From an uncultured Eubacteriales bacterium (lineage in GTDB: Bacteria; Bacillota; Clostridia; Christensenellales; Aristaeellaceae), in assembly GCA_900553295.1 (NCBI GenBank), contig USCR01000049.1:1-14675 (forward strand): a stretch of 14,675 bases of DNA, given 5' to 3'. Position numbers and translations under genes: made by a program. Shown one piece after another: positions 1 to 9,955 of this stretch (positions are counted from its first letter, which is position 1; the number at the start of each line of letters is the position of its first letter). Below the pieces are notes generated by a model. That model made no database searches. It saw nothing but the letters and a program-made list of their open reading frames with translations, and was not told where the DNA came from.

Positions 1-543
1 GTGAATTTGGTCTGGATCCGGAAAAAGGGCATATCATCAATGGTCAATTTGTCCCGGTTTACCTTGTTTGATCCCGCCTTGCCTGCTTCCGTGCTGGCGA
101 TCCAAAGCCAGTACCCCCTCCTGGAGCCCGGCTTGGTGGAGGTGGAGATTACCGAGAGTGCCGGCAATGTGGAAAGCAAGAGCCTTTCGGATGCCATGGA
201 CCGGTTCCATCAGCTGGGACTGCAATTTGCCTTGGACGATTTCGGCTCCCAGTACGCCAATGCCGCCCTGCTGACCCATGTGAAATTTAACTGCCTGAAG
301 CTGGACCGGACGCTGATTTCCGATCTGGCCGGAAACCGTTGCAGCCAGATGCTGGTGCGGGATTTGGTGGAGATTTGCCATACCAGCGGCATGCGTTGCG
401 TGGCGGAAGGCGTGGAAACCCAGGCACAAAAAGAGGTGCTGCTCCAGGCTGGCTGTATCTATGGCCAGGGATTTCTCTTTGATCCCCCGCTTTCGGCGGA
501 AGCGTTTGAGAAAAAATATTTGCATGGGACGCAGAAGCAATAG
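1..543 (+). CDS. EAL-domain c-di-GMP phosphodiesterase, 3' fragment
   Basis: This is the C-terminal ~180 residues of an EAL domain, which hydrolyses the second messenger cyclic-di-GMP to pGpG. The reading frame is open to the window edge, so the true start, the EAL signature itself and any sensory or GGDEF domain lie upstream; the GTG at base 1 is simply an internal codon. Conserved catalytic elements are all present in order: VNLSR (metal-binding Asn16), EITES (Glu49), DDFG (Asp79-Asp80), KLDR (Lys100), AEGVET (Glu136) and GQGFLF (Gln156). The visible half therefore looks catalytically intact. The domain ends a few residues before the stop, so nothing follows it. The next gene is convergent (minus strand), and the hairpin at 696-743 may also end this transcript. 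The family call is firm; the input signal and full architecture cannot be seen. Confidence 0.9.
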   Translation: MNLVWIRKKGISSMVNLSRFTLFDPALPASVLAIQSQYPLLEPGLVEVEITESAGNVESKSLSDAMDRFHQLGLQFALDDFGSQYANAALLTHVKFNCLKLDRTLISDLAGNRCSQMLVRDLVEICHTSGMRCVAEGVETQAQKEVLLQAGCIYGQGFLFDPPLSAEAFEKKYLHGTQKQ

Positions 544-689
544 GAGAAGACCTTTGCATGGCAGGCATTGGGCAAACAGTGAAAGCGGCGTTTCGCCTGT
601 GCACTGCCGTGCATGAGCTGAATCATCTGTGTGGGCACAAGGAAGAATTCCCCCAGGGGAAAAGCACCGGAAAACCTGAACAGAAAAAA

Positions 690-743
690 CAAGAAGCTCC
701 CTCTCTGACGCGCAGTTTTTGCACTGTGTGCCGGAGAGGGAGC
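690..743 (-). terminator. Rho-independent terminator of the sigma/PrsW operon
   Basis: A perfect 10-bp stem pairs 696-705 (GCTCCCTCTC) with 734-743 (GAGAGGGAGC). The interior can add a further five pairs. Read on the minus strand the stem is followed by a T-rich run (TTCTTGTTTTTTCTG), the classic intrinsic terminator layout, about 30 bases past the stop of the last operon gene. On the plus strand it is followed only by ATTTTC, so it may work weakly in both directions and also close the EAL transcript. Confidence 0.85.
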
Positions 744-775
744 ATTTTCAGCCTGCCGCCCAGGCCCGTACTACG

Positions 776-1168
776 TTATGATTTTCCTGCGCTGGCAGGC
801 GTGCGCGGTATCTTGGAAATGGACGCCCCGCCATCGCCAATCCACTTTTGCGTATAGCGCCGGACGCGCTTGCGATGCCATTGCCTGTACAGCCTATCGG
901 CGCCAAGGCCAACCAGGCAGCCCAGGAAAAAGAAAACCACGGCAATGATTACGTAATGGCTCCCGCTGCCCTCAAACACAAGCGAACCGTAGGATTCGGT
1001 ATAGCTGGCGACGGTCATGCCGGTTTTGCCATTGAGTAGAAAGAGAAGCGCCAGGGACAGTACCACGCAGCTGAGGCCCATGAGCAGCTTCCTTCGTTGG
1101 AGTTGCTTTTCGCGGATGACCTCGGCGCGCCGGAAGACCTCCTGCATTAAGGCATCATTGATGCGCAT
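776..1168 (-). CDS. Two-span membrane protein of unknown function (last gene of sigma operon)
   Basis: The product is 130 residues. It has a short, strongly charged N-terminus (1-28, rich in Arg, Glu and Lys), a first membrane span at about 28-46, an exposed loop of about 25 residues, a second span at about 71-90 and a basic C-terminal tail. By the positive-inside pattern both ends should be cytoplasmic. I recognise no family. The start is taken as ATG 1168 because GGGGTG sits six bases upstream; an in-frame GTG three codons earlier (1177) would itself lie in that ribosome site. The start overlaps the end of the PrsW-like gene (1155), suggesting coupled translation. A charged N-terminal helix followed by a span resembles the layout of small membrane anti-sigma factors, so a sigma-regulator or accessory role is possible, but this is inference from layout and operon position only. 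Confidence 0.75.
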   Translation of the reverse strand: MRINDALMQEVFRRAEVIREKQLQRRKLLMGLSCVVLSLALLFLLNGKTGMTVASYTESYGSLVFEGSGSHYVIIAVVFFFLGCLVGLGADRLYRQWHRKRVRRYTQKWIGDGGASISKIPRTPASAGKS

Positions 1169-1799
1169 GTTTTTCACCCCGTTCTAACCGTTGTCTTGCA
1201 AAGAGAACTTTACCTGCGCCAATCAGGGCGACCGGGAGCATATACCCAAGCACACGGGAAAGGCCGGCGCAGGACACCAGCAAATTGTATAGCGCATGGA
1301 CCGTGACGGTAACCGCGTAAACGGCCATCAGGCCGGTTACGGTTTCCATGGCCATGCGATGGATCATTTGTATGGACAGAATAAGCATCAGCGCACACGC
1401 AACGTGTATCGCGGAGGAAAAGAAACACCGGAAAAACAGCGCCAGCAGCGACGCGTTCCCAGAGGAAAAAAGCAAAGCAATGCTTTCCAGCAAAGAAAAC
1501 CCAATGCCTATGCCAATGACAATTTCCTGCGTTTCCCCTTCCTGTAACTGCCATATGAAAAAGAAAAGCGCAAACAGCAGGAGCTTTGCTCCCTCTTCCA
1601 CCAGGGGACTGATGTACAGTACAGCGGCCATGCTGTCGTATTGCACGATTCCTGCAAGAACACCGCTGACAGTACCGGAGATAAAGGCGGCCAGCATGCC
1701 ACCGGAGACCGCGGCCAGCAGGCGGCGAGCATTTCCCCGAAGCAACAGCGCGGCCAGCAGCGGCCCGCTGATGCAGGCCAGCAAGAGCTCAGAGCGCAT
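1155..1799 (-). CDS. PrsW-family intramembrane metalloprotease
   Basis: The product is a 214-residue, very hydrophobic multi-span protein with the spaced motifs of the PrsW/CAAX-protease-like superfamily: EExxK (Glu68-Glu69-Lys72), GIGFSLLES with Glu105, a membrane His132 and HALYN (His168, Asn172). In Bacillus subtilis, PrsW performs site-1 cleavage of the anti-sigma factor RsiW, freeing an ECF sigma factor. Finding such a protease three genes after an ECF sigma gene fits that role. The start ATG 1799 is preferred: an AAGGAAGGTG ribosome site lies upstream and it overlaps the previous gene by 11 bases. An in-frame TTG at 1835 would add 12 residues. It is shorter than many PrsW proteins but the motif set is complete. 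The substrate is not evident from sequence. The family assignment rests on motifs read by eye. Confidence 0.8.
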   Translation of the reverse strand: MRSELLLACISGPLLAALLLRGNARRLLAAVSGGMLAAFISGTVSGVLAGIVQYDSMAAVLYISPLVEEGAKLLLFALFFFIWQLQEGETQEIVIGIGIGFSLLESIALLFSSGNASLLALFFRCFFSSAIHVACALMLILSIQMIHRMAMETVTGLMAVYAVTVTVHALYNLLVSCAGLSRVLGYMLPVALIGAGKVLFARQRLERGEKHAHQ

Positions 1800-2562
1800 G
1801 GCACGCTTCACCTTCCTTAGAAACGGATCGGGCAAAATAGGCCAGAAACCCCAGCATCAATAGCTGAAAGACGTTGTATGCCACGCCTGTGCACAGAAAA
1901 GAAGCGCACTCGCAGTATACCAGGATGAGCACCGGGCCGGGCATGGCTAATTGCGCAAGCGTGCCTTTCCCCTTGAGCAGCCGGATGAACTGGACGAGGG
2001 AGAGCAGCCATATCAAACTGCAAAGCAGCTTGACCTTTTCCCAATGGACAGCCGGCAGCAGGAAAGCAAACGTCTCTGCCACCATCAATGCGCCCAGCAG
2101 CAGTGCATACAAAGCAAAGGTGCGGGAGGACAGGTCCACCTTTGTGCGCAGAGCGCTGCGCACGGCAATCAACATCAGTGGAATGGCCCAAAGCAGGTTA
2201 ATTAACCAACTGCTGGTCCAAACCATCCAACCAATGCAATTCAGCAGGATAAAAACCCCCATGAGCGCCGCAAAGGCCTTGCTTGATTTCTCCGGCTGCG
2301 CCGCACGGGGAAGCCCCGCGTTGAGAATCAGCCAAAAGCCCAGATAGGCCGCATCGCAGGCAGAGAGGATCACCGGCGTGCTGCCCCGGATCATCAGGTG
2401 CGCCAGCCAATAAACATCCCCCAGGAAAAGGCAGACGACTGCAACGGTTATCGCGTACAGCGCAGGATACCCCGGCACGTGAAGGGTCTTTTGAATCAAC
2501 CAGCATGCCAGCACCATACAGACCAGACAATGCAGCATTTCATAGAGAATCGTTGCGTCCAT
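1789..2562 (-). CDS. Multi-span (7-8) membrane protein of unknown function
   Basis: The product is 257 residues with hydrophobic stretches at about 5-25, 33-56, 62-84, 95-115, 117-136, 147-169, 177-195 and 207-245, giving seven or eight spans with short loops. No catalytic motif, ATP-binding or anti-sigma domain is visible. The arrangement resembles the membrane sensor halves of some receptors, with no output domain. The ATG at 2562 has GGAGA upstream, and the gene begins inside the preceding small ORF (overlap 2562-2540) and ends 11 bases inside the PrsW-like gene. It is therefore translationally embedded in the ECF sigma operon. A sensor or sigma-restraining role is a reasonable guess from context, but no function can be assigned from the sequence. 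Confidence 0.8.
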   Translation of the reverse strand: MDATILYEMLHCLVCMVLACWLIQKTLHVPGYPALYAITVAVVCLFLGDVYWLAHLMIRGSTPVILSACDAAYLGFWLILNAGLPRAAQPEKSSKAFAALMGVFILLNCIGWMVWTSSWLINLLWAIPLMLIAVRSALRTKVDLSSRTFALYALLLGALMVAETFAFLLPAVHWEKVKLLCSLIWLLSLVQFIRLLKGKGTLAQLAMPGPVLILVYCECASFLCTGVAYNVFQLLMLGFLAYFARSVSKEGEACHAL

Positions 2563-2665
2563 GTTGCTTCGTCTCCATGTGCAGCGTTTTTACAAGCATG
2601 GCGGCAACCACGCCAAAGAGAAAGGCCAGCACCGCAATCAGGCAGCAGGTGAGAAGTTCATGCAT
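2540..2665 (-). CDS. Small single-span membrane protein (41 aa)
   Basis: This 41-codon gene starts at ATG 2665, two bases past the sigma factor stop, behind a very strong AGGAGG ribosome site that lies inside the end of the sigma gene. It encodes MHELLTCC then one hydrophobic helix (about residues 4-25, with two cysteines at 7-8 near its start), then a short hydrophilic tail with Lys, His, Arg and Asp. It overlaps the start of the next gene by 23 bases. The ribosome site, tight spacing and clean membrane-peptide composition make it very likely real, although its length means automatic annotation would probably miss it. Function is unknown; it could be a small regulator of the sigma factor, the multi-span protein or the protease. 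Confidence 0.75.
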   Translation of the reverse strand: MHELLTCCLIAVLAFLFGVVAAMLVKTLHMETKQHGRNDSL

Positions 2666-2666
2666 A

Positions 2667-3197
2667 TTACCTTTCCTCCTTACGTAGCCATTCGCGCAGC
2701 CTCTTTTTCCCGCGATAGGCCAGGTTATCCACTTTTTTTTTATCCATGCCCAGGACTGTGGCCGCCTGGGCATAGCTGATGTTTTCCAGATACAGCAGCG
2801 TCAGCACCCGGCGTTCGCCCTCGGGCAAGCGGCTCAAGTGCGCCAGTACTTCCTGCCGCTCCTCCTGCTGCAGGTAGACTGCTTCTGCGCTGGAAGCCGC
2901 CAGGCATTGCGCTGCGCCCAGGTTCATTTGGTTCATTCGCAGGTTCCGGTACCGCGAAATGGATAAATTTCTTGCGATCCGGTATAGCCAGCCCTGAAAG
3001 CTGCCGCCACGCCACAGGCTCTTTCGCAAGGCCACCACGGCAAAGGCGTCCAGCGCCATTTCCTCAGCCTCCGTGACACTGTGCAGAAAGGTAAAGCAGA
3101 ACAGCGTCAGCCGGTTCATGTGCCGGTCCATAAGCTCCCTGAGCCCGTCATCCTCCCCACAGAGAAAGCGGGCATACAGCTCTTCATCGGTAATCAA
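2667..3197 (-). CDS. ECF-family RNA polymerase sigma factor
   Basis: The product is a 176-residue sigma-70-like factor of the extracytoplasmic-function type. The region 2 core is at about 20-85, with the DNA-melting segment around GGSFQGWLYRIARNLSISRYR. A linker of about 25 residues follows, then region 4 at about 112-170, with a helix-turn-helix around ISYAQAATVLGMDKKKVDNLAYRGKKRL that contacts the -35 element. Regions 1.1 and 3 are absent, as usual for ECF factors. The start must be TTG 3197: the frame is closed upstream by TGA at 3236-3234 and has no ATG or GTG in between. A GAGG lies ten bases upstream. It heads a five-gene membrane operon with a PrsW-like protease, suggesting that its activity is controlled by membrane proteolysis. 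No clear promoter of its own type is recognisable upstream. Confidence 0.93.
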   Translation of the reverse strand: MITDEELYARFLCGEDDGLRELMDRHMNRLTLFCFTFLHSVTEAEEMALDAFAVVALRKSLWRGGSFQGWLYRIARNLSISRYRNLRMNQMNLGAAQCLAASSAEAVYLQQEERQEVLAHLSRLPEGERRVLTLLYLENISYAQAATVLGMDKKKVDNLAYRGKKRLREWLRKEER

Positions 3198-3306
3198 ACA
3201 TTCTTTGCCTCGCTTTCTTGATGTATTGCCTGCTCATTTTGGAAGGTACCATGTTTTCAAGGAGAACGCAAACCCTCTTGGGGCAAAAATCCGGGCGAGG
3301 ACAAAG

Positions 3307-3379
3307 AAAAAACAATCAGCACGGGGCCTCAAAGGGGACGCATGGCGTGCCCCGCCGCACCGGCAGAGCACGCCACGCG
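3307..3379 (-). terminator. Probable terminator region of the surface-protein gene
   Basis: Just past the surface-protein stop (3387) two alternative GC hairpins can form. One is an 8-bp stem, 3343-3350 (TGGCGTGC) with 3368-3375 (GCACGCCA), extendable by three pairs after one mismatch. The other is a 6-bp stem, 3322-3327 (CGGGGC) with 3349-3354 (GCCCCG). A run of six T on the minus strand (3312-3307) follows the second stem after nine bases. The gap between stem and T run is longer than ideal, so efficiency is uncertain. Confidence 0.4.
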
Positions 3380-3386
3380 CCGGGAA

Positions 3387-6300
3387 TCACCGGCGGTTAC
3401 CTAAAAACTTGTTCTTGCCCAGCAGGTAGCCGAACACCAGAATGGTGCCGCATCCCAGGAGCATTGCCAGCAGGGGCAGCAGCGGGAACTGGTCCCCGGT
3501 CTGCGGCGCAGGCTTGACCACATCCAGCCTGGCTGCTTCGGAGACAACCTTTTGCCCAATGTCATCCTGTATGACGCAATAATACTGGTTGCCGTTGAGC
3601 TCAATGCTGGCGGTAACGGTCAGCTGGCTGGAAACAGCCCCGGCTACGGGCGTTCCTTCTTCCGCAATGGCGCTGGCAAAGACGCTGCTCTCACCGCGCG
3701 TGCCCGGAATGACATACCACTGATAGGCATACGGCTGCACGCCACCGGAAACGGAAACGCTGAAAACCGCGTCCTCGCCCACCAGGCGTGTGGCATCCTG
3801 GGGCGACTGGAGCAGGATCAAAGCCGGCTGGGAGACATACAGCGTTGCGGCGCCGGAAATCACCCGCTGGTTGACCACATCCTGCACCACACAGTAGTAA
3901 CGGTAGCCGTTCAGCGCCTGGCTGGCGGTAACGGTCAGGGTGGCGGCATTGGCCCCGGAGATGGGGGAGCCCGCGCCGGAGGCGGGATCACCCGACTGCC
4001 CGGCGGGAATACGGTACCACTGATAGGTCAGGGGCAGCTCGCCGCCGGAAACCCCCACGGCAAAGGTGCCCGTTTCACCGCTTTCCAGGCAGGCATCATC
4101 GGGGGAGAAAAGCAGCTTCAGCGGTGACTGCGTTACGCGCAGCGTGGCCGCGGCGGAAACAACCTGTTGCGCCACCATATCCTGTACCACGCAGTAATAG
4201 CGGTTGCCGTCCATGGCGTAGTCGCCCGTTACGGACAGACGGTCGCTGGTGGCCCCGGAGATGGGGGAACCAGTGCCGGAGGCGGGATCGCCGGACTGTC
4301 CGGCAGGAATGAGATACCACTGATAGGTCAGGGGCAGCTCGCCGCCGGAAACGCTTACGGTAAAGGGGGCTGTCTCGCCCTTTTTCACGGAAATATCCTG
4401 GGGGGAGGACAGCAGCACCAGCGGGGATTTCCGTACCGTGAGCATTGCGGCGTCCGATACAACCTGCTGCGCCACCGAATCCTGTACCACGCAGTAATAC
4501 CGGTTGCCATCCATGGCATAGTCCGCAGTGACGGAAAGGGTGGGGGTGGTGGCGCCGCTGATGGGGGAACCGGCGCCGGAGGCGGGATCGCCGCTCTGGC
4601 CGGCGGGAATCATATACCATTGATAGGCCAGGGCCGGTTGACCGCCGGATACCGTAACGCGGAAGACCGCGCTTTCACCTTTGCGCAGAGCGGCATCCTG
4701 GGGCGAGGACAGTAGCTTCAGCAACGGGTAACTGGTATATGTGGCAGTATAGGTGGTATCCTTGGAGACCGGCTCGATGGCTGGCTGCCAGGAGGAGAAA
4801 ACATAGTACCAGGAATCGTCCGGCTCACGGTGCGGCGTTTCTCCCGTGTAGCTGGGGATAACCCCTGCATCCAGGTCGCGGTTAGCATCCAGCAGAGCGC
4901 CGTCCCAGTTGAGCCAGAAGACATTGTAGGTCACGGGCTTCCAGTTGGCCACGTAGGTTCTGTTGACAAAGTCAGATTCAGTTCCAAATTTTTGATTCCA
5001 TTGGACAGTTACATCCAGCTTTGGTGTGGTGAGTCCGACCACTTCCTCTTCACATGTCCAGCCAACAAAAACGTAATCCTTGCGCCAGGGGTTGACCAGG
5101 GGGAAGCCATCGACGTTAGAAAAGTAGATCTGGGGATTGTCCGCCAGCACTACGTCAGCGCCATCACCATCACCATCGGCGACGTAGGTAATGGTGCGGA
5201 AATTCACCTTGGGTTGATCTTTCGTCCAAATCGCAAACAGCTGAATGTTCGATGCCTCAACCTTGATCTCGGCACCTGGGATATACCCGGCTGTCGTGCT
5301 GTTCTTATCCGCTGACCAACCTACAAAAATGTAGCCCTCACGCCGCGGAACCTCGTTTGGAATGGTGCCCGTATGGTTTTCTTCCACCCAAAACGGATTT
5401 GGCATATTTTCCACGGTTTCTCCGCCTGCGTTTTCGTCAAAGTACACCAGTGTCATAAAGTGATAACGGATAAGCTCGATGTCGACTTTTTGGCCTTCTT
5501 TGCTCGGCCTAACTTTATACTCTGCCGTAGTAGAGACTTTGTGCGGATCAGTGACAGGAGTGTCTGGATCATCCTGCCATGAGGTGGCGGTGATTTTGAC
5601 GTCGCCTACGGGCATGTACAGGTAGACATAGCCGTCCTTGTCAGTTACCCCTTCAATGTAACTTTTGCCCCTTCGGTCGGCATATGGCGGCACCTCCGTA
5701 TAGGTGACGGTCACGCCCTCCATCGGGGTTTTCTTTTGCGAACCTTGTTCCAGGACGCGTACGTCTACCTGATAGAGATAGTGTTCGCAGGGCGCGAGCT
5801 CAAACTCCTTAAAGGTAAAGGAGTAGTGAAAATCGGAGTACTTTTCATGGGCCAGGTCATAGTGCGCTGACCAGACGTGTCCGGCCAGCTGCGCCCAGGC
5901 TTCCAGCTTCACCAGGGCATCAATTTCCCCCTGCAGGCAGGAGAGCTCCTTGCAGACGTGCCACTCGTTGGGATTGATGGGCCGCACCCCCACCAGCGGA
6001 TCGGGGTCTCTGCCGCCCTCGTCCCCCGTGAGATCAGCCGAAATGGCAATGCCCGCGGCAATGTCGCAGCCTATGCCGGCAACGGAAAGCACATCCAGGG
6101 AGGGCCCAAGGGTCAGGTCCACTTCAAAGCTGCCATTGGCAATGATCTCTTCCACATTCAGCTGGGGTTTTTGCGATAGGTTGCTGAACTTCGGCGTGGA
6201 GAAAGGCGCGGCTTTGAAGCCGAAGCCGGTTTTGCCGTCCTGCATGTCAAAGCTGACTTTCGTGTCTCCTTCAACAAAGAGCCCAAGCCCAACCCCGACT

Positions 6301-7001
6301 TCCAGCCCCACGCCGGGTATGCCGGAGAAAGGAAACTTCAAAATGGGAATCTCCTGGGCAAAGTTGTCGCTGACTTCAAGGACAGCATCCTTCAAATTAT
6401 AGCTCACCCAGGTGTTCGTTTCCAGGGTGAAACCGTTGTATTTTACCTGGACGTAGAAATCCCCGGTGAGCGCGCCGCTAAATTTCAGCGTACCGGCAGG
6501 GTTGCTAAAGGAAAGATTCTGGCTGAAAGGAAAGGTTTTGGAGGTATCGATGCCAATTTTGAAAAACAGCTCCTCCGGCTGCACATCCTCGGGGCTGCAG
6601 GTAAAGACCATGCGGTCGGACTGAACCGTGACCTGGGTGGGGAGAAAGAAGAAGGCCTCCAGTGTTGTTTCGTCAATAAAGGCCACCGGTGTCCCGGGCG
6701 CGATGCGTTTCGCCTCGCTGGTGGGATTGTAGAGGGTATAGGTGGTATTGTCATCGGAAGCATCCATGCTCATGCTGGCATCCGCGTAAAGAATGGCGGA
6801 ACCTTCACGCATGACGACGAAATTGGCATCATCGGTGATGTCTTCAGCGTTTAGGTTCAGGTCGATATACAGCGGATCATTCCCATAGAGCGCCTTGCTC
6901 TCAATGGTAAAGTCCTCTTCGGCGGCAGCCGAACAGATGCCCAGGCTAAGCACCAGGGCCAGCAGAAGCAACAGGGAGAGAAGCCTTCTACGCATCGTCA
7001 T
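3387..7001 (-). CDS. Large sortase-anchored surface protein with InlB-type and Ig-like repeats
   Basis: The product is a 1204-residue secreted, cell-wall-anchored protein. Order: signal peptide (1-27, basic start, Leu-rich core, cleavage near SAAAEE); a beta-rich region I do not recognise (about 30-405); a prealbumin-like/CarboxypepD-reg-type domain (about 408-512); two InlB/Flg_new-type repeats (about 514-595 and 602-690, each with a FVGW core) and a related repeat (690-760, ending TYTATYT); four Ig-like repeats of 100 residues (761-1162); and a C-terminal sorting signal APQTGD (1165-1170) with a hydrophobic span (about 1173-1195) and basic tail KNKFLGNRR. Such proteins usually act in adhesion or surface binding; the ligand is not evident. 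The motif is not canonical LPxTG but resembles [S/N/P]PxTG motifs used by clostridial class B sortases, and a class B sortase lies about 1.9 kb away. ATG 7001 has GGTGA upstream; ATG 6995 is an alternative start. Confidence 0.9.
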   Translation of the reverse strand: MTMRRRLLSLLLLLALVLSLGICSAAAEEDFTIESKALYGNDPLYIDLNLNAEDITDDANFVVMREGSAILYADASMSMDASDDNTTYTLYNPTSEAKRIAPGTPVAFIDETTLEAFFFLPTQVTVQSDRMVFTCSPEDVQPEELFFKIGIDTSKTFPFSQNLSFSNPAGTLKFSGALTGDFYVQVKYNGFTLETNTWVSYNLKDAVLEVSDNFAQEIPILKFPFSGIPGVGLEVGVGLGLFVEGDTKVSFDMQDGKTGFGFKAAPFSTPKFSNLSQKPQLNVEEIIANGSFEVDLTLGPSLDVLSVAGIGCDIAAGIAISADLTGDEGGRDPDPLVGVRPINPNEWHVCKELSCLQGEIDALVKLEAWAQLAGHVWSAHYDLAHEKYSDFHYSFTFKEFELAPCEHYLYQVDVRVLEQGSQKKTPMEGVTVTYTEVPPYADRRGKSYIEGVTDKDGYVYLYMPVGDVKITATSWQDDPDTPVTDPHKVSTTAEYKVRPSKEGQKVDIELIRYHFMTLVYFDENAGGETVENMPNPFWVEENHTGTIPNEVPRREGYIFVGWSADKNSTTAGYIPGAEIKVEASNIQLFAIWTKDQPKVNFRTITYVADGDGDGADVVLADNPQIYFSNVDGFPLVNPWRKDYVFVGWTCEEEVVGLTTPKLDVTVQWNQKFGTESDFVNRTYVANWKPVTYNVFWLNWDGALLDANRDLDAGVIPSYTGETPHREPDDSWYYVFSSWQPAIEPVSKDTTYTATYTSYPLLKLLSSPQDAALRKGESAVFRVTVSGGQPALAYQWYMIPAGQSGDPASGAGSPISGATTPTLSVTADYAMDGNRYYCVVQDSVAQQVVSDAAMLTVRKSPLVLLSSPQDISVKKGETAPFTVSVSGGELPLTYQWYLIPAGQSGDPASGTGSPISGATSDRLSVTGDYAMDGNRYYCVVQDMVAQQVVSAAATLRVTQSPLKLLFSPDDACLESGETGTFAVGVSGGELPLTYQWYRIPAGQSGDPASGAGSPISGANAATLTVTASQALNGYRYYCVVQDVVNQRVISGAATLYVSQPALILLQSPQDATRLVGEDAVFSVSVSGGVQPYAYQWYVIPGTRGESSVFASAIAEEGTPVAGAVSSQLTVTASIELNGNQYYCVIQDDIGQKVVSEAARLDVVKPAPQTGDQFPLLPLLAMLLGCGTILVFGYLLGKNKFLGNRR
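3516..4721 (-). repeat. Four tandem 300-bp repeats (100-residue Ig-like units)
   Basis: Within the surface-protein gene, four units start at residues 761, 861, 961 and 1061 (4721-4422, 4421-4122, 4121-3822, 3821-3516). Each begins L-x-LL-x-SP-x-DA, has VSGG...YQWY and ends near RYYCVVQD...V. Units 1-3 keep exact 300-base register and share an almost identical GQSGDPASGxGSPISGA segment, visible on DNA as near-identical blocks about 300 bases apart (around 3961, 4261 and 4561). Unit 4 is diverged in that segment and two residues longer. The similarity of units 1-3 points to recent duplication or gene conversion. Confidence 0.9.
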
Positions 7002-7012
7002 TGTTTTTCACC

Positions 7013-7032
7013 GGCGCGTGCATGCACGCGCC
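7013..7032. repeat. Perfect 20-bp GC palindrome just upstream of the surface-protein start
   Basis: GGCGCGTGCA is followed directly by its exact reverse complement TGCACGCGCC, with no spacer. It ends 12 bases before the ATG at 7001 and abuts the ribosome site. It could be an operator for a dimeric regulator or, in the mRNA, a hairpin that hides the ribosome site. No sigma-A-like promoter could be recognised between it and the upstream terminator. Confidence 0.7.
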
Positions 7033-7103
7033 CCTCACGGGTCCTTCCTTCATGGGTTTGGGTCAGTGGTGGGCGGGAACCTTGCTGCGTTTTAGCAGGT
7101 CAT

Positions 7104-7151
7104 GAAAAAACGCAAACGTTTCCGGCTGGCATGGAGACCGACCGGAAACGT
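7104..7151 (-). terminator. Rho-independent terminator of the sortase operon
   Basis: A perfect 10-bp stem, 7116-7125 (ACGTTTCCGG) with 7142-7151 (CCGGAAACGT), encloses a 16-base loop. On the minus strand it is followed by TTGCGTTTTTTC, an intrinsic terminator beginning nine bases past the stop of the last gene (7160). It separates the sortase operon from the surface-protein gene, which therefore needs its own promoter or read-through. Confidence 0.85.
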
Positions 7152-7159
7152 GTCAGGCA

Positions 7160-7714
7160 TTATTCCGCCTGTGGCTCGTTGGTGGAAAAGGCAATCCCGT
7201 ACAACAGGCTGCGGGCAAAATTGTCATCCGCTTCTGTTTGCTCCGCAAAGTCGTCGTGGTACTGGATCAATTCCACAAAGTACCCTTCGTAGATGGTGAA
7301 AAGGGAATCCACGTCCCATTCATCATTGGAGCTGACGAACAGGTACAGGTTACCCTCGGGGGAGGTCTCCGTGGCATAGGTTGGGTTTTCATACTGGGAG
7401 CCGGCAATCTCCTGCAGCTCTTGTATCTCCTCTTCCGTCAGATCCGACATGGACATGCCCGCGTACACGTCGGAGGGCGCAATGCTGATGACCACGTCGG
7501 CGTGATCGTCGCTGTGAACCGTGGCGCGAACCTGATCGGCGGGGGCGTAGGGGCTGAACTCAATGTCCAGGGTCCCGGTATAGGTCAGCGTAATGGTCAC
7601 CGGGCTATCCGGCTGGGAAAGGGGAATGGTGGTTTCCACCGCCGTGATCTCTTCCGCGCAGGCAAAGCTCATCATGAGCAGTGCGGCAAGCAACAGTGCA
7701 ATCAACTTCTTCAT
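7160..7714 (-). CDS. Small acidic secreted protein of unknown function
   Basis: The product is 184 residues: a signal peptide (1-20, MKKLIALLLAALLMMSFACA, likely cut at ACA|EE) then a strongly acidic, soluble domain with predicted beta strands and an acidic helical stretch (DLTEEEIQELQEIAG, 91-105). The cysteine at 19 is not in a convincing lipobox, so free export is likelier than lipid anchoring. I recognise no family. The ATG at 7714 follows GGAGGT at six-base spacing; the longer frame upstream is not used. The ATG overlaps the stop of the SH3b gene (ATGA), so the two are probably translated together. It is the last gene before the terminator at 7104-7151. Confidence 0.8.
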   Translation of the reverse strand: MKKLIALLLAALLMMSFACAEEITAVETTIPLSQPDSPVTITLTYTGTLDIEFSPYAPADQVRATVHSDDHADVVISIAPSDVYAGMSMSDLTEEEIQELQEIAGSQYENPTYATETSPEGNLYLFVSSNDEWDVDSLFTIYEGYFVELIQYHDDFAEQTEADDNFARSLLYGIAFSTNEPQAE

Positions 7715-8289
7715 TGACTTACCTCCTCCAAACCGAAGCTCAGGGGCACCAGGAATTCCTTCATCATGAAACCGCAAATGTTCTTCTGGGTATCATAAAC
7801 CTGGCACCAGGTTTTGCTTTCAGCGATTACCTGCAGGGTGGACCCGGAATAGTAGATGTCGTGGACGGCGGTGGACTTGGAGGGCGCCCAGCGCATGTTC
7901 ACATAGCCCGAAGGCGTGGAGGGCTTGACCGACGCGAGGTAGTAAGTAGACTTGAAGTCCTTGAAGGATAGGCTTTCCGCGGTGCTGGGCTGGGTGGAGG
8001 GCGGTGTCAGGCTTAGGTATCGGGTCATGACATAGCCGTCACGTCCGCCATAGCCGATATGCGCCCAGGTGTTGCTGTTTAGAAATTCATAAACAACAAC
8101 CGCCGCGCCATTGGGAATGGAGGTAAGGATGTTATTGCCCAGGTCGGTGGAGCTGCGCATGTTCAGGGATTTCTTGTTTGCTGTGTTTACATAATATACC
8201 ATGGCATCGGCATAGGCGCTGACCAGCAGGGGGGCGCACAGCGCGGCCACCAGTACCAGGGCAAGCAATCCTGTCCAAACTTTTCTCAT
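7711..8289 (-). CDS. Secreted protein with two bacterial SH3 (SH3b) domains
   Basis: The product is 192 residues: signal peptide (about 1-28, ending VSAYADA) and two SH3b-type domains at about 31-94 and 115-182, joined by a Ser/Thr/Pro linker. Typical landmarks are LNMRSSTDLGNNILTSIPNGAAVVV in the first and VNMRWAPSKS, GSTLQVI and WCQV in the second. SH3b domains commonly bind cell-wall peptidoglycan and accompany wall hydrolases, but no catalytic domain is present here, so this could be a wall-binding adaptor. The ATG 8289 follows AAGGAGC with eight-base spacing. It lies 61 bases after the I42 inhibitor gene on the same strand and overlaps the next gene by four bases, consistent with one operon with the sortase. 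Confidence 0.88.
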   Translation of the reverse strand: MRKVWTGLLALVLVAALCAPLLVSAYADAMVYYVNTANKKSLNMRSSTDLGNNILTSIPNGAAVVVYEFLNSNTWAHIGYGGRDGYVMTRYLSLTPPSTQPSTAESLSFKDFKSTYYLASVKPSTPSGYVNMRWAPSKSTAVHDIYYSGSTLQVIAESKTWCQVYDTQKNICGFMMKEFLVPLSFGLEEVSQ

Positions 8290-8350
8290 GTTGATGCTCC
8301 TTTTCGATGGCGTTTATTGCTCAAAACAAGTGGAAACCTTGAAAGGTACT

Positions 8351-8764
8351 TTACTCAATGGCCCCTTCCGTAAAGGTGGTGGCGACGATGGTCACCTGCA
8401 GCTCACTGTCTACGGCAATGTCGTACACCAGCGTGTACAGGGGGGCCTCCGCTTCCCAGGAGCGGCCATATGTAAAGGTGACGGTGGTGCGTCCCTCCGC
8501 TTTTCCTTCAAAAGCGTAGCGCTGGAAGCCGCCTACGCCCGTGGCGGTTTCTTCTGCGGCATCCTGGGCAAATCCGTCGTCAACCACGGCCACGACCTTT
8601 TCATCCGCCACGATGGCGGTCCAGGTGTAGCCGGTGGTGGGGTTGCCACGCAGGATCACGGCCGGCTCCGTGGGGGTGTTCCCGTCCTCCTGGGCGAAGG
8701 CGGAGAACGTCAAGGCCGCCAGCAGCACCAGCGCCAGGAACAGACAAATGCGTTTCATTTTCAT
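8351..8764 (-). CDS. Chagasin-like cysteine-protease inhibitor (I42 family), secreted
   Basis: The product is 137 residues: signal peptide (about 1-24, SAFA|QE) and one compact beta domain with the three inhibitory loop motifs of chagasin/ICP proteins: NPTTGYTW (41-48), GVGGFQRY (76-83) and an RPW-type loop read here as RSWE (101-104). Family members block papain-like cysteine peptidases by wedging these loops into the active site. With Ser in place of Pro in the third loop, affinity may differ. The protein should act outside the cytoplasm. It sits between the sortase gene and the SH3b gene, so it probably belongs to their operon. Whether its target is a bacterial protease, a host protease or protection of the surface proteins is not visible from sequence. 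An AAGGA ribosome site precedes ATG 8764. Confidence 0.9.
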   Translation of the reverse strand: MKMKRICLFLALVLLAALTFSAFAQEDGNTPTEPAVILRGNPTTGYTWTAIVADEKVVAVVDDGFAQDAAEETATGVGGFQRYAFEGKAEGRTTVTFTYGRSWEAEAPLYTLVYDIAVDSELQVTIVATTFTEGAIE

Positions 8765-8892
8765 TGCTTTTCATCCTTTCATAAATGCTTCAGGGCTGAG
8801 TGTGTGTGCTTCCGGGGAAACGATGCGGGGGACCTGATCGCGGGCTATCGCCTTTGCAGTTTTTTAATATCGGGCGGTTGCCAGCGAAAGCG

Positions 8893-9846
8893 TTACTGCG
8901 TGGGTGCGTCCGTGGATTCGCCGGGGCGTACGCGCCGGGCACATACCAGCAGGCGCTCCCGGTCGTCCCCTGTGCAGGTGGAGAGAATCAGCAGTTGGTC
9001 GCCCGTGTTTACGTCCACCGGTGCGGGAAACGCATTCAACCGTAGCAGGGCGGCCAGCGTCTCCTCCTGTTGCGCTGAGGTCATTTGATTGTACATGGTG
9101 TAGTTGACAAAGCGGGTGGAACCGTAGACGGTATTCACGCGCAACGCGGCAAAGACCAGGAAATCCCCCTCTTCGTACTGCGTATCACAGGCGATGATGG
9201 GGTGGGTACGGAAATAGCTGTAGGTCTCATATTTTCGCAGATTGCCAAACATTGCCCCGGTTTTCATATTGTGCCCGTACAAAATCAGCGCCTTGGGGTT
9301 GCCGGTCAGGTCGCAGCCCATATCCAGAAAAATCGCGCCGTTGTCATTGTGATATCCCAGGTAATCCCGGTTCAGGTAGTAGGTGTTATCCCGCTGCACC
9401 ACGGCGATGTCCAGCTGCTCCGGAATGGTGAGCCAGGCGACAATGTCCTGATTCTGCTGCTTGAGCTTTGCAAAACGTGGCGACATGATTTTGAAGGTGA
9501 TGGGGGTCGCCGTGGGGGAAGCTGTCGAGGGGCTGCTGTCCGCTGCCAGGGGTGAGGCGGCGGCGGATGCAGCCTGCGGCGTGGGGGAAGCAGTATACGC
9601 AGCCGCTTCCTGAATAGCCAGCAGGTTCGCTTGCTGCAGCACCGCTGCCTGCTGCCTGCTGCGTAGGGCTTGAAGGCCATAATTCGCCAGCTCGATCAGG
9701 GCAAATACAAAACCTGCTGCGGCCAGGACCATCACCAGTTTGCCAAGCTTGCTCCATAGGGAGGGGCGCCGGTGTGCTGGGGGCCTGGGCGCCCTGGACG
9801 GCGGGCGCTGCCGCGCTGGGGAGGGGGCAGGACTATAAGGCGTCAC
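8893..9846 (-). CDS. srtB: Class B sortase
   Basis: The product is a 317-residue membrane-anchored transpeptidase that cuts a sorting motif and joins the protein to the cell wall. An unusually Pro/Arg-rich cytoplasmic N-terminus (about 1-35) is followed by one membrane span (about 37-58), an Ala/Ser/Thr/Pro linker (about 82-116) and the sortase B domain (about 120-305): LTIPEQLDIAVVQRDNTYYL, GAIFLD, YGHNMKTGAMFGNL with catalytic His192, LSTC with Cys291, and Arg298. The longest frame begins at 9945, but GTG 9846 is chosen because AGGAGG lies five bases before it; the residues added upstream look like untranslated leader. It is the first gene of a minus-strand run with secreted proteins. Its probable substrate is the APQTG protein at 3387-7001. 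Confidence 0.9.
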   Translation of the reverse strand: MTPYSPAPSPARQRPPSRAPRPPAHRRPSLWSKLGKLVMVLAAAGFVFALIELANYGLQALRSRQQAAVLQQANLLAIQEAAAYTASPTPQAASAAASPLAADSSPSTASPTATPITFKIMSPRFAKLKQQNQDIVAWLTIPEQLDIAVVQRDNTYYLNRDYLGYHNDNGAIFLDMGCDLTGNPKALILYGHNMKTGAMFGNLRKYETYSYFRTHPIIACDTQYEEGDFLVFAALRVNTVYGSTRFVNYTMYNQMTSAQQEETLAALLRLNAFPAPVDVNTGDQLLILSTCTGDDRERLLVCARRVRPGESTDAPTQ

Positions 9847-9892
9847 ACTCACCTCCTGGTACAAAACAACAAACAATACGCTCTCATATATT

Positions 9893-9955
9893 AAGTCGCA
9901 GCATGGCAATAAAATCCTTATCAAAAATGGAGAAATTTTTACCATGCTGCGACTT
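9893..9955 (+). terminator. Long inverted repeat with plus-strand terminator layout
   Basis: AAGTCGCAGCATGG (9893-9906) pairs perfectly with CCATGCTGCGACTT (9942-9955); a smaller 6-bp stem, 9923-9928 with 9935-9940, can form in the loop. On the plus strand the distal arm runs into a seven-T tract, a terminator-like ending, yet both flanking genes are on the minus strand. On the minus strand it lies in the sortase leader or promoter area and has no T run. It may end an unannotated plus transcript or antisense RNA, or be a structured leader or mobile remnant. Confidence 0.55.

Follow-up and report, generated by a model that had tools for sequence, protein, structure and literature searches.

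The window analysed here is a stretch of 14,675 nucleotides from an uncultured Eubacteriales bacterium (contig USCR01000049.1), whose minus strand carries an operon of five genes (3197-776) encoding an extracytoplasmic function (ECF) sigma factor, a 41-residue membrane peptide, a multi-span membrane protein, a PrsW-family intramembrane protease and a two-span membrane protein (genes 1 to 5). We tentatively interpret the operon as a self-contained module for the release of the sigma factor, in which the two-span protein would restrain sigma, the multi-span protein would sense a signal, and PrsW followed by an M50 protease would cut the restraint; we consider this reading possible, close to but short of probable.

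A five-gene module that is rare but recurrent

The preliminary description of this stretch reported five tightly coupled genes closed by one terminator, and both were found: the gene junctions are, in order, a gap of 1 nt and overlaps of 23, 11 and 14 nt, and the operon ends in a terminator with a 10-bp stem and a T-rich tail, which is absent from the list of a simple scan restricted to loops of 3-8. An alternative start of gene 5 is the GTG at 1177. Judged from its domains, gene 1 is an ECF sigma factor, with regions 2 and 4 only and a small size (176 aa). PF04542 (Sigma70_r2) and PF08281 (r4_2) scored above their Pfam cut-offs, and TIGR02937 of NCBIfam gave 62.3 bits (cut-off 42.9); among the best 25 of 94, no group-specific NCBIfam model passed its cut-off. 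The TTG start of gene 1 is supported by the ribosome-binding region GAAAGCGAGGC, which lies 9-10 nt upstream of the TTG and is identical in 5 aligned window-type leaders, both of the nearly identical loci L002 and L003 being counted among the five. Searches of Pfam and NCBIfam with the three uncharacterised proteins of the window, as proposed in the preliminary description, placed none of them in an established family above threshold: the peptide and the multi-span protein had no Pfam match and gene 5 had sub-threshold matches only.

When species genomes were scanned with an alignment of multi-span proteins, four related loci (L001-L004) were obtained, in metagenome-assembled genomes named uncultured Clostridia, Candidatus Limiplasma, uncultured Eubacteriales and Candidatus Avichristensenella, and all four contained the five genes of the window in identical order. 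Profile searches matched 4 of 396 genomes in an order-level sample (G002, G004, G060 and G315), 8 of 391 in a class-level sample (7 of them real), 3 of 299 in a phylum-level sample (G764 and G840 being real), and 1 of 9 in one small order, this one being the centre genome itself. Two multi-span matches were dropped as spurious, one in G412 (L028), an open reading frame without any other recognised module gene, and one in G771 (L034), where no module gene was recognised; P0120, listed with a sigma/LuxR-type helix-turn-helix, was set aside as, by eye, a partial multi-span protein joined to a LuxR-type helix-turn-helix. Nine distant loci (L012, L013, L022-L027 and L033) emerged when the surroundings were annotated, so that the module recurs in 13 loci besides the window. 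The PrsW protein had no match among plasmids.

Conservation of gene order, by which the preliminary description had proposed to check its reading, was borne out: all five genes lie on one strand in the same order in 13 of the 14 loci, and in L033 the contig ends after PrsW. The order in the distant loci is sigma, two-span protein A, seven-span protein, PrsW, two-span protein B. Because the same order occurs in 13 other loci, it is more than chance, and the module, though rare, is recurrent. Compared with the window, sigma was 63-75% identical in the clade of the window and 24-40% in the distant loci (given for 12 of the 13 other loci, L003 being left out), and PrsW identity was 24-66% across the other loci and 24-29% in the nine distant ones. 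Pairwise protein distances were correlated between genes with r of 0.90-0.97 (L003 left out), and those of sigma with the other module proteins with r of 0.91-0.96. Permutations were confined to the four gene pairs with at most nine loci, in each of which 0 of 300 reached the observed r; the other six pairs are given without permutations.

Two irregularities were observed among these loci. The multi-span and PrsW frames at L027:4707-5601 are broken into partial frames, by assembly error or decay. Between L002 and L003, identity is 99-100% for sigma, peptide and multi-span protein, 89% for PrsW and 71% for the two-span protein, a pattern that recombination or an assembly join within the operon might leave.

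Gene 5 as candidate anti-sigma factor

Eight distant complete loci each encode two two-span proteins: A, whose gene is the next one after sigma, and B, whose gene follows PrsW. Within a locus, A-B identity averages 0.23, compared with 0.34 among A and 0.35 among B in these eight loci; since the former is below the latter two, A and B are, as far as their sequences tell, paralogues that predate the split of these lineages. We compared 24 two-span sequences, including P0025, P0028 and P0029 without known genome context and several whose starts were chosen by eye. All 24 have a predicted cytoplasmic N-terminus of 20-34 residues with 6-12 lysines or arginines, a predicted outside loop of 22-30 residues and then a cytoplasmic tail, and all carry a small-residue motif (YGS, MAS or similar) in the outside loop shortly ahead of the second span, which in gene 5 is Y60-G61-S62. 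The cytoplasmic tail of B is basic and 28-40 residues long in 7 of 7 members of the window clade, and has 5-19 residues in 8 of 8 distant B proteins.

A two-span profile searched against 13 genomes gave 21 strong matches (E <=5.4e-26), all of them module genes, and the next match had an E of 3.2e-4. Pfam and NCBIfam returned only scattered weak matches for the 24 members (best E 2.6e-4, in one member), and DUF4179 touched 2 of the 24 (best E 0.03). The preliminary description saw no zinc-type anti-sigma motif, and HxxxCxxC indeed occurs in none of the five operon proteins. Its broader statement that no anti-sigma factor was recognisable stands for zinc-type domains, while the comparison singles out gene 5, one of the two paralogues: as the place of A is held by the 41-residue peptide in the window clade, gene 5 (B) is, on comparative grounds, the best candidate for the restraint and for the substrate of the protease. 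With so short a cytoplasmic segment, gene 5 would account for the absence of a visible zinc-type anti-sigma factor. The proposal that the restraint is one of three membrane proteins is thereby partly supported and sharpened, with gene 5 as the leading restraint and the peptide as probably a relic of its paralogue.

The 41-residue peptide as a probable remnant of A

In the window clade, a peptide of 41-42 residues occupies the place of A and aligns with the second span and tail of A. A hidden Markov model (HMM) of the second span of A scored four peptides at 14.0-16.5 bits; none of 958 unrelated hydrophobic 41-residue windows reached 14.0 (best 6.0), and 4 of 1998 shuffles did (best 15.1). The peptides are mutually related and the control windows overlap, so that these scores support one event well and do not amount to four independent tests. 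A model of the first span of A gave no signal in the peptides, and the two-span profile touched the L004 peptide at E 0.19, in the second-span part. B was considered as a source of the peptide and rejected. A model of the second span of B that included the window-clade B proteins scored the peptides at 8.9-18.4, with 8.9 or more in 0 of 984 windows and 41 of 2000 shuffles, and a model of distant B only scored them at 3.9-10.3, with 3.9 or more in 4 of 986 windows and 238 of 1999 shuffles; the B models were thus weaker or less specific, and A fits better, mainly together with position.

These results suggest that the peptide is probably a truncated A that lacks the cytoplasmic helix and outside loop. 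Its dN/dS was about 0.25-0.63 in four pairs, to be taken with caution given the 23 nt overlap with the next gene, and the peptide is best read as still under selection. The truncation of A and the longer tail of B coincide once, which suggests a possible compensation.

The multi-span protein and the protease

The multi-span protein, described earlier as having 7-8 spans, instead has nine hydrophobic segments by hydropathy and nine helices in the AlphaFold2 prediction (pLDDT 87), and it is present in 14 of 14 module loci. Its distant homologues were predicted with high confidence as seven-helix proteins, and their top fold matches were bundles of the G-protein-coupled receptor (GPCR) or rhodopsin type, with scores below what would prove kinship. 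At the threshold used for the window protein, hydropathy gave only 5 segments for P0037 and 4 for P0122, two short homologues, compared with seven helices in the model of P0122. The loops of the window protein are short, with 11 lysines or arginines in alternate loops versus 2 in the others. Pfam gave only scattered weak matches across 54 multi-span members, of which DUF6962 touched three (best E 0.0029). Microbial rhodopsins carry a retinal-binding lysine inside the last helix. An identity as microbial rhodopsin was rejected for the window protein and P0122, in which the only lysines of that helix lie at its cytoplasmic end (K249 in the window; K195 and K199 in P0122). We consider the multi-span protein likely to be the sensor.

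The PrsW assignment of gene 4 held, with PF13367 matched at E=1.3e-9 and 38.3 bits (cut-off 23.5) and with E68, E69, K72, F101, E105, H132, H168 and N172 invariant in 14 of 14 sequences, the L027 member being a partial frame. Published PrsW motifs are EExxK, a histidine in the fifth helix and HxxxD (PMC4602095). EExxK (E68, E69, K72) and the helix-5 histidine (H132) were present in all 14, and the gene 4 product is very probably catalytic, as far as conserved residues can indicate. With gene order conserved and these residues invariant, neither of the two outcomes that the preliminary description named as refuting its reading on these points was observed.

Proposed mechanism and alternative explanations

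In the resting cell, the cytoplasmic segments of B (gene 5), which are short and basic, would keep the ECF sigma factor at the membrane, joined in the window clade by the 41-residue peptide. The multi-span protein would act as sensor or gate and, on a signal, would allow PrsW to cut the outside loop of B, which is short, close to the conserved small-residue motif (in the window, YGS). The remaining stub would next be cut by a general M50 site-2 protease, which would free sigma. Binding of sigma by B, cutting of B by PrsW, sensing by the multi-span protein and the identity of the signal are the steps that we infer. The site at which PrsW cuts RsiW, which we take to be A168/S169, was not found in the literature searched, and its likeness to the small-residue motif of the two-span proteins is only a suggestion.

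The module resembles SigW-RsiW of Bacillus subtilis, with its proteases PrsW and RasP, in having an ECF sigma factor, a PrsW-family protease with EExxK and the helix-5 histidine, a membrane-bound candidate restraint and an available M50 protease. It differs in having no zinc-type domain, in a restraint candidate that spans the membrane twice with a 20-34-residue cytoplasmic N-terminus, and in holding protease, multi-span protein and restraint candidates in one operon, whereas Bacillus prsW and sigW-rsiW sit apart. In Bacillus, RsiW is cut by PrsW and then by RasP, by which SigW is released (PMC3498285). The present gene arrangement was not described in the titles and abstract openings of the literature searched on PrsW, ECF sigma factors and two-span anti-sigma factors.

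Several observations weigh against release by proteolysis of B. No known anti-sigma domain was detected in the 24 two-span members with Pfam and NCBIfam, and no sigma gene beside a two-span gene outside the module was found at E 0.01 in nine weak-match loci (about 3.1 kb each). The window PrsW, like all 14, has HxxxN (H168, N172) and not HxxxD, HxxxN being the form given for type II CAAX protease (PMC4602095). M50 proteases were present in 13 of 13 module genomes; since they were also present in 14 of 14 control genomes and are near-universal, their presence is weak support. Finally, the two-span N-terminus of 20-34 residues is shorter than two helices would require in the <50-residue anti-sigma class that PMC7406223 sets aside.

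The strongest rival, which we consider rather unlikely, is release without proteolysis, in which sigma would be held by a two-span protein and the peptide (or by A and B) and freed allosterically, and PrsW would serve turnover or another substrate. Such release is described for SigM of Bacillus subtilis, which is restrained by the two small membrane proteins YhdL and YhdK and is not released by regulated proteolysis (PMC11081497). As there, the sigma gene of the module shares an operon with two small membrane proteins, A and B or peptide and B; unlike there, the operon adds PrsW and the multi-span protein. In 14 of 14 loci, the PrsW gene stands after the multi-span gene and ahead of the place of B, and its motif is intact, which suggests that the protease is integral to the module. 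It is improbable, in our estimate, that the multi-span protein itself tethers sigma through its cytoplasmic loops or tail, with the two-span proteins as accessories or sensors. Its basic cytoplasmic loops and its presence in every locus would suit such a role, but the loops are short, its length varies by clade (203-267 aa) while sigma stays similar, and the conserved charged N-terminus of the two-span proteins is more like a protein-binding segment. Still more doubtful is an operon without an anti-sigma factor, in which sigma would be regulated through its own transcription, with the membrane genes as effectors, for example in peptide protection or processing. The PrsW superfamily includes putative bacteriocin-processing enzymes (PMC4602095). 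In L023 and L026, a housekeeping-type promoter (TTGACG-N17-TATAAT or TACAAT) could be read by eye ahead of sigma, and of the 14 sigma leaders only that of L033 matched a loose ECF-type pattern. In the window, no ECF-type promoter was recognised ahead of sigma, and a promoter scan of positions 1-4000 found no sigma-70-type site, with 1.5 expected. Against this explanation, the operon begins with sigma, whose pairwise distances run parallel to those of the other proteins, and the pairing of an ECF sigma factor with PrsW is known as a means of control.

The form of the restraint itself can also be compared with known anti-sigma factors, whose domains contact sigma2 and sigma4 by helices (PMC7406223). 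Class I factors, zinc or zinc-free, have a four-helix cytoplasmic domain of on average 101 +/- 33 residues (PMC7406223), and this class was rejected for the two-span proteins, with N-termini of 20-34 and C-terminal tails of 5-40 residues and no HxxxCxxC in genes 1-5. The length of the N-terminus fits class II, in which fewer than about 50 residues wrap sigma2/sigma4 with two helices. CnrY, the class II partner of CnrH in Cupriavidus metallidurans, is alike in its very short cytoplasmic anti-sigma segment and unlike in having two helices in one protein (PMC7406223), the module two-span proteins having one short N-terminal segment each; by analogy, this would fit a divided version of the CnrY type. 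A more elaborate scheme, which we regard as improbable, is such a split anti-sigma factor under a seven-helix receptor of the rhodopsin/GPCR kind, acting through an intramembrane protease. A and B would each supply one short cytoplasmic helix, one of them for sigma2 and the other for sigma4; in the window clade A would have lost its helix, leaving the 41-residue peptide, and the 28-40-residue basic tail of B would replace it. The HtrII transducer has two spans. The sensory rhodopsin II/HtrII pair is unlike the module in that the fold score is below kinship level and partner and output are unrelated.

Surface-protein genes next to the module

Upstream of the operon is a gene (7001-3387, minus strand) for a large protein in which Pfam recognises Ig-like and Flg_new repeats; it lies in a run of genes for surface or secreted proteins (window 3387-9945; Table 1). 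A similar long gene stands ahead of sigma in L002, in L003 and, truncated by the contig, in L004, with Flg_new confirmed only in L002; L001 has no such gene there and instead has a relative of the window 7160-7717 gene. In L027, a Flg_new-repeat protein directly follows the module. It is plausible that the module controls surface proteins. Upstream of the module in L033 (L033:156-752), a protein was seen by eye to resemble those with surface-layer homology repeats, a further surface neighbour.

The leader of the Ig-like/Flg_new gene (7002-7160, minus strand) matches that of L002 at 134 of 178 aligned bases and, though apparently non-coding, is about as well conserved as the sigma gene. It contains a terminator-like stem and, just ahead of the start, the perfect 20-nt palindrome GGCGCGTGCATGCACGCGCC; its RNA fold has a z of -2.47, and no Rfam family reached its gathering score. 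A regulon motif derived from the surface-gene leader was rejected: G002, G003 and G004 each had a single strong place (E <=1.4e-13), and G001 had nothing better than E 0.56.

Table 1 Features of the window, with the evidence or context for each
Feature	Coordinates	Strand	Evidence or context
Intrinsic terminator, operon end	684..743	-	-31.5 kcal/mol, z -4.87
Gene 5, two-span protein B, candidate anti-sigma factor and PrsW substrate	776..1168	-	130 aa; topology and motif
Gene 4, PrsW-family intramembrane protease	1155..1799	-	214 aa; PF13367, invariant residues
Gene 3, multi-span membrane protein, candidate sensor	1789..2562	-	257 aa; hydropathy, AlphaFold2, module conservation
Gene 2, 41-aa single-span peptide	2540..2665	-	HMM of A second span, alignment
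Gene 1, ECF sigma factor	2667..3197	-	176 aa, TTG start; Pfam, TIGR02937, TTG context
GAAAGCGAGGC, ribosome-binding region	3207..3217	-	Invariant ahead of sigma TTG start
Uncharacterised protein	7160-7717	-	Upstream surface/secreted run
SH3-domain protein	7711-8289	-	Upstream surface/secreted run
Chagasin-type inhibitor I42	8351-8764	-	Upstream surface/secreted run
Sortase	8893-9945	-	Upstream surface/secreted run

Implications

If the proposed release of sigma by proteolysis of B is true, the operon would be a compact sigma-control module that brings its own sensor, protease and unusually small anti-sigma factor together in one operon. What activates PrsW would then be directly testable, with a dedicated membrane partner encoded alongside. 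The module would further point to a reason for the apparent lack of an anti-sigma factor in some ECF sigma operons, namely that the domain may be as short as about 30 residues and escape domain searches.

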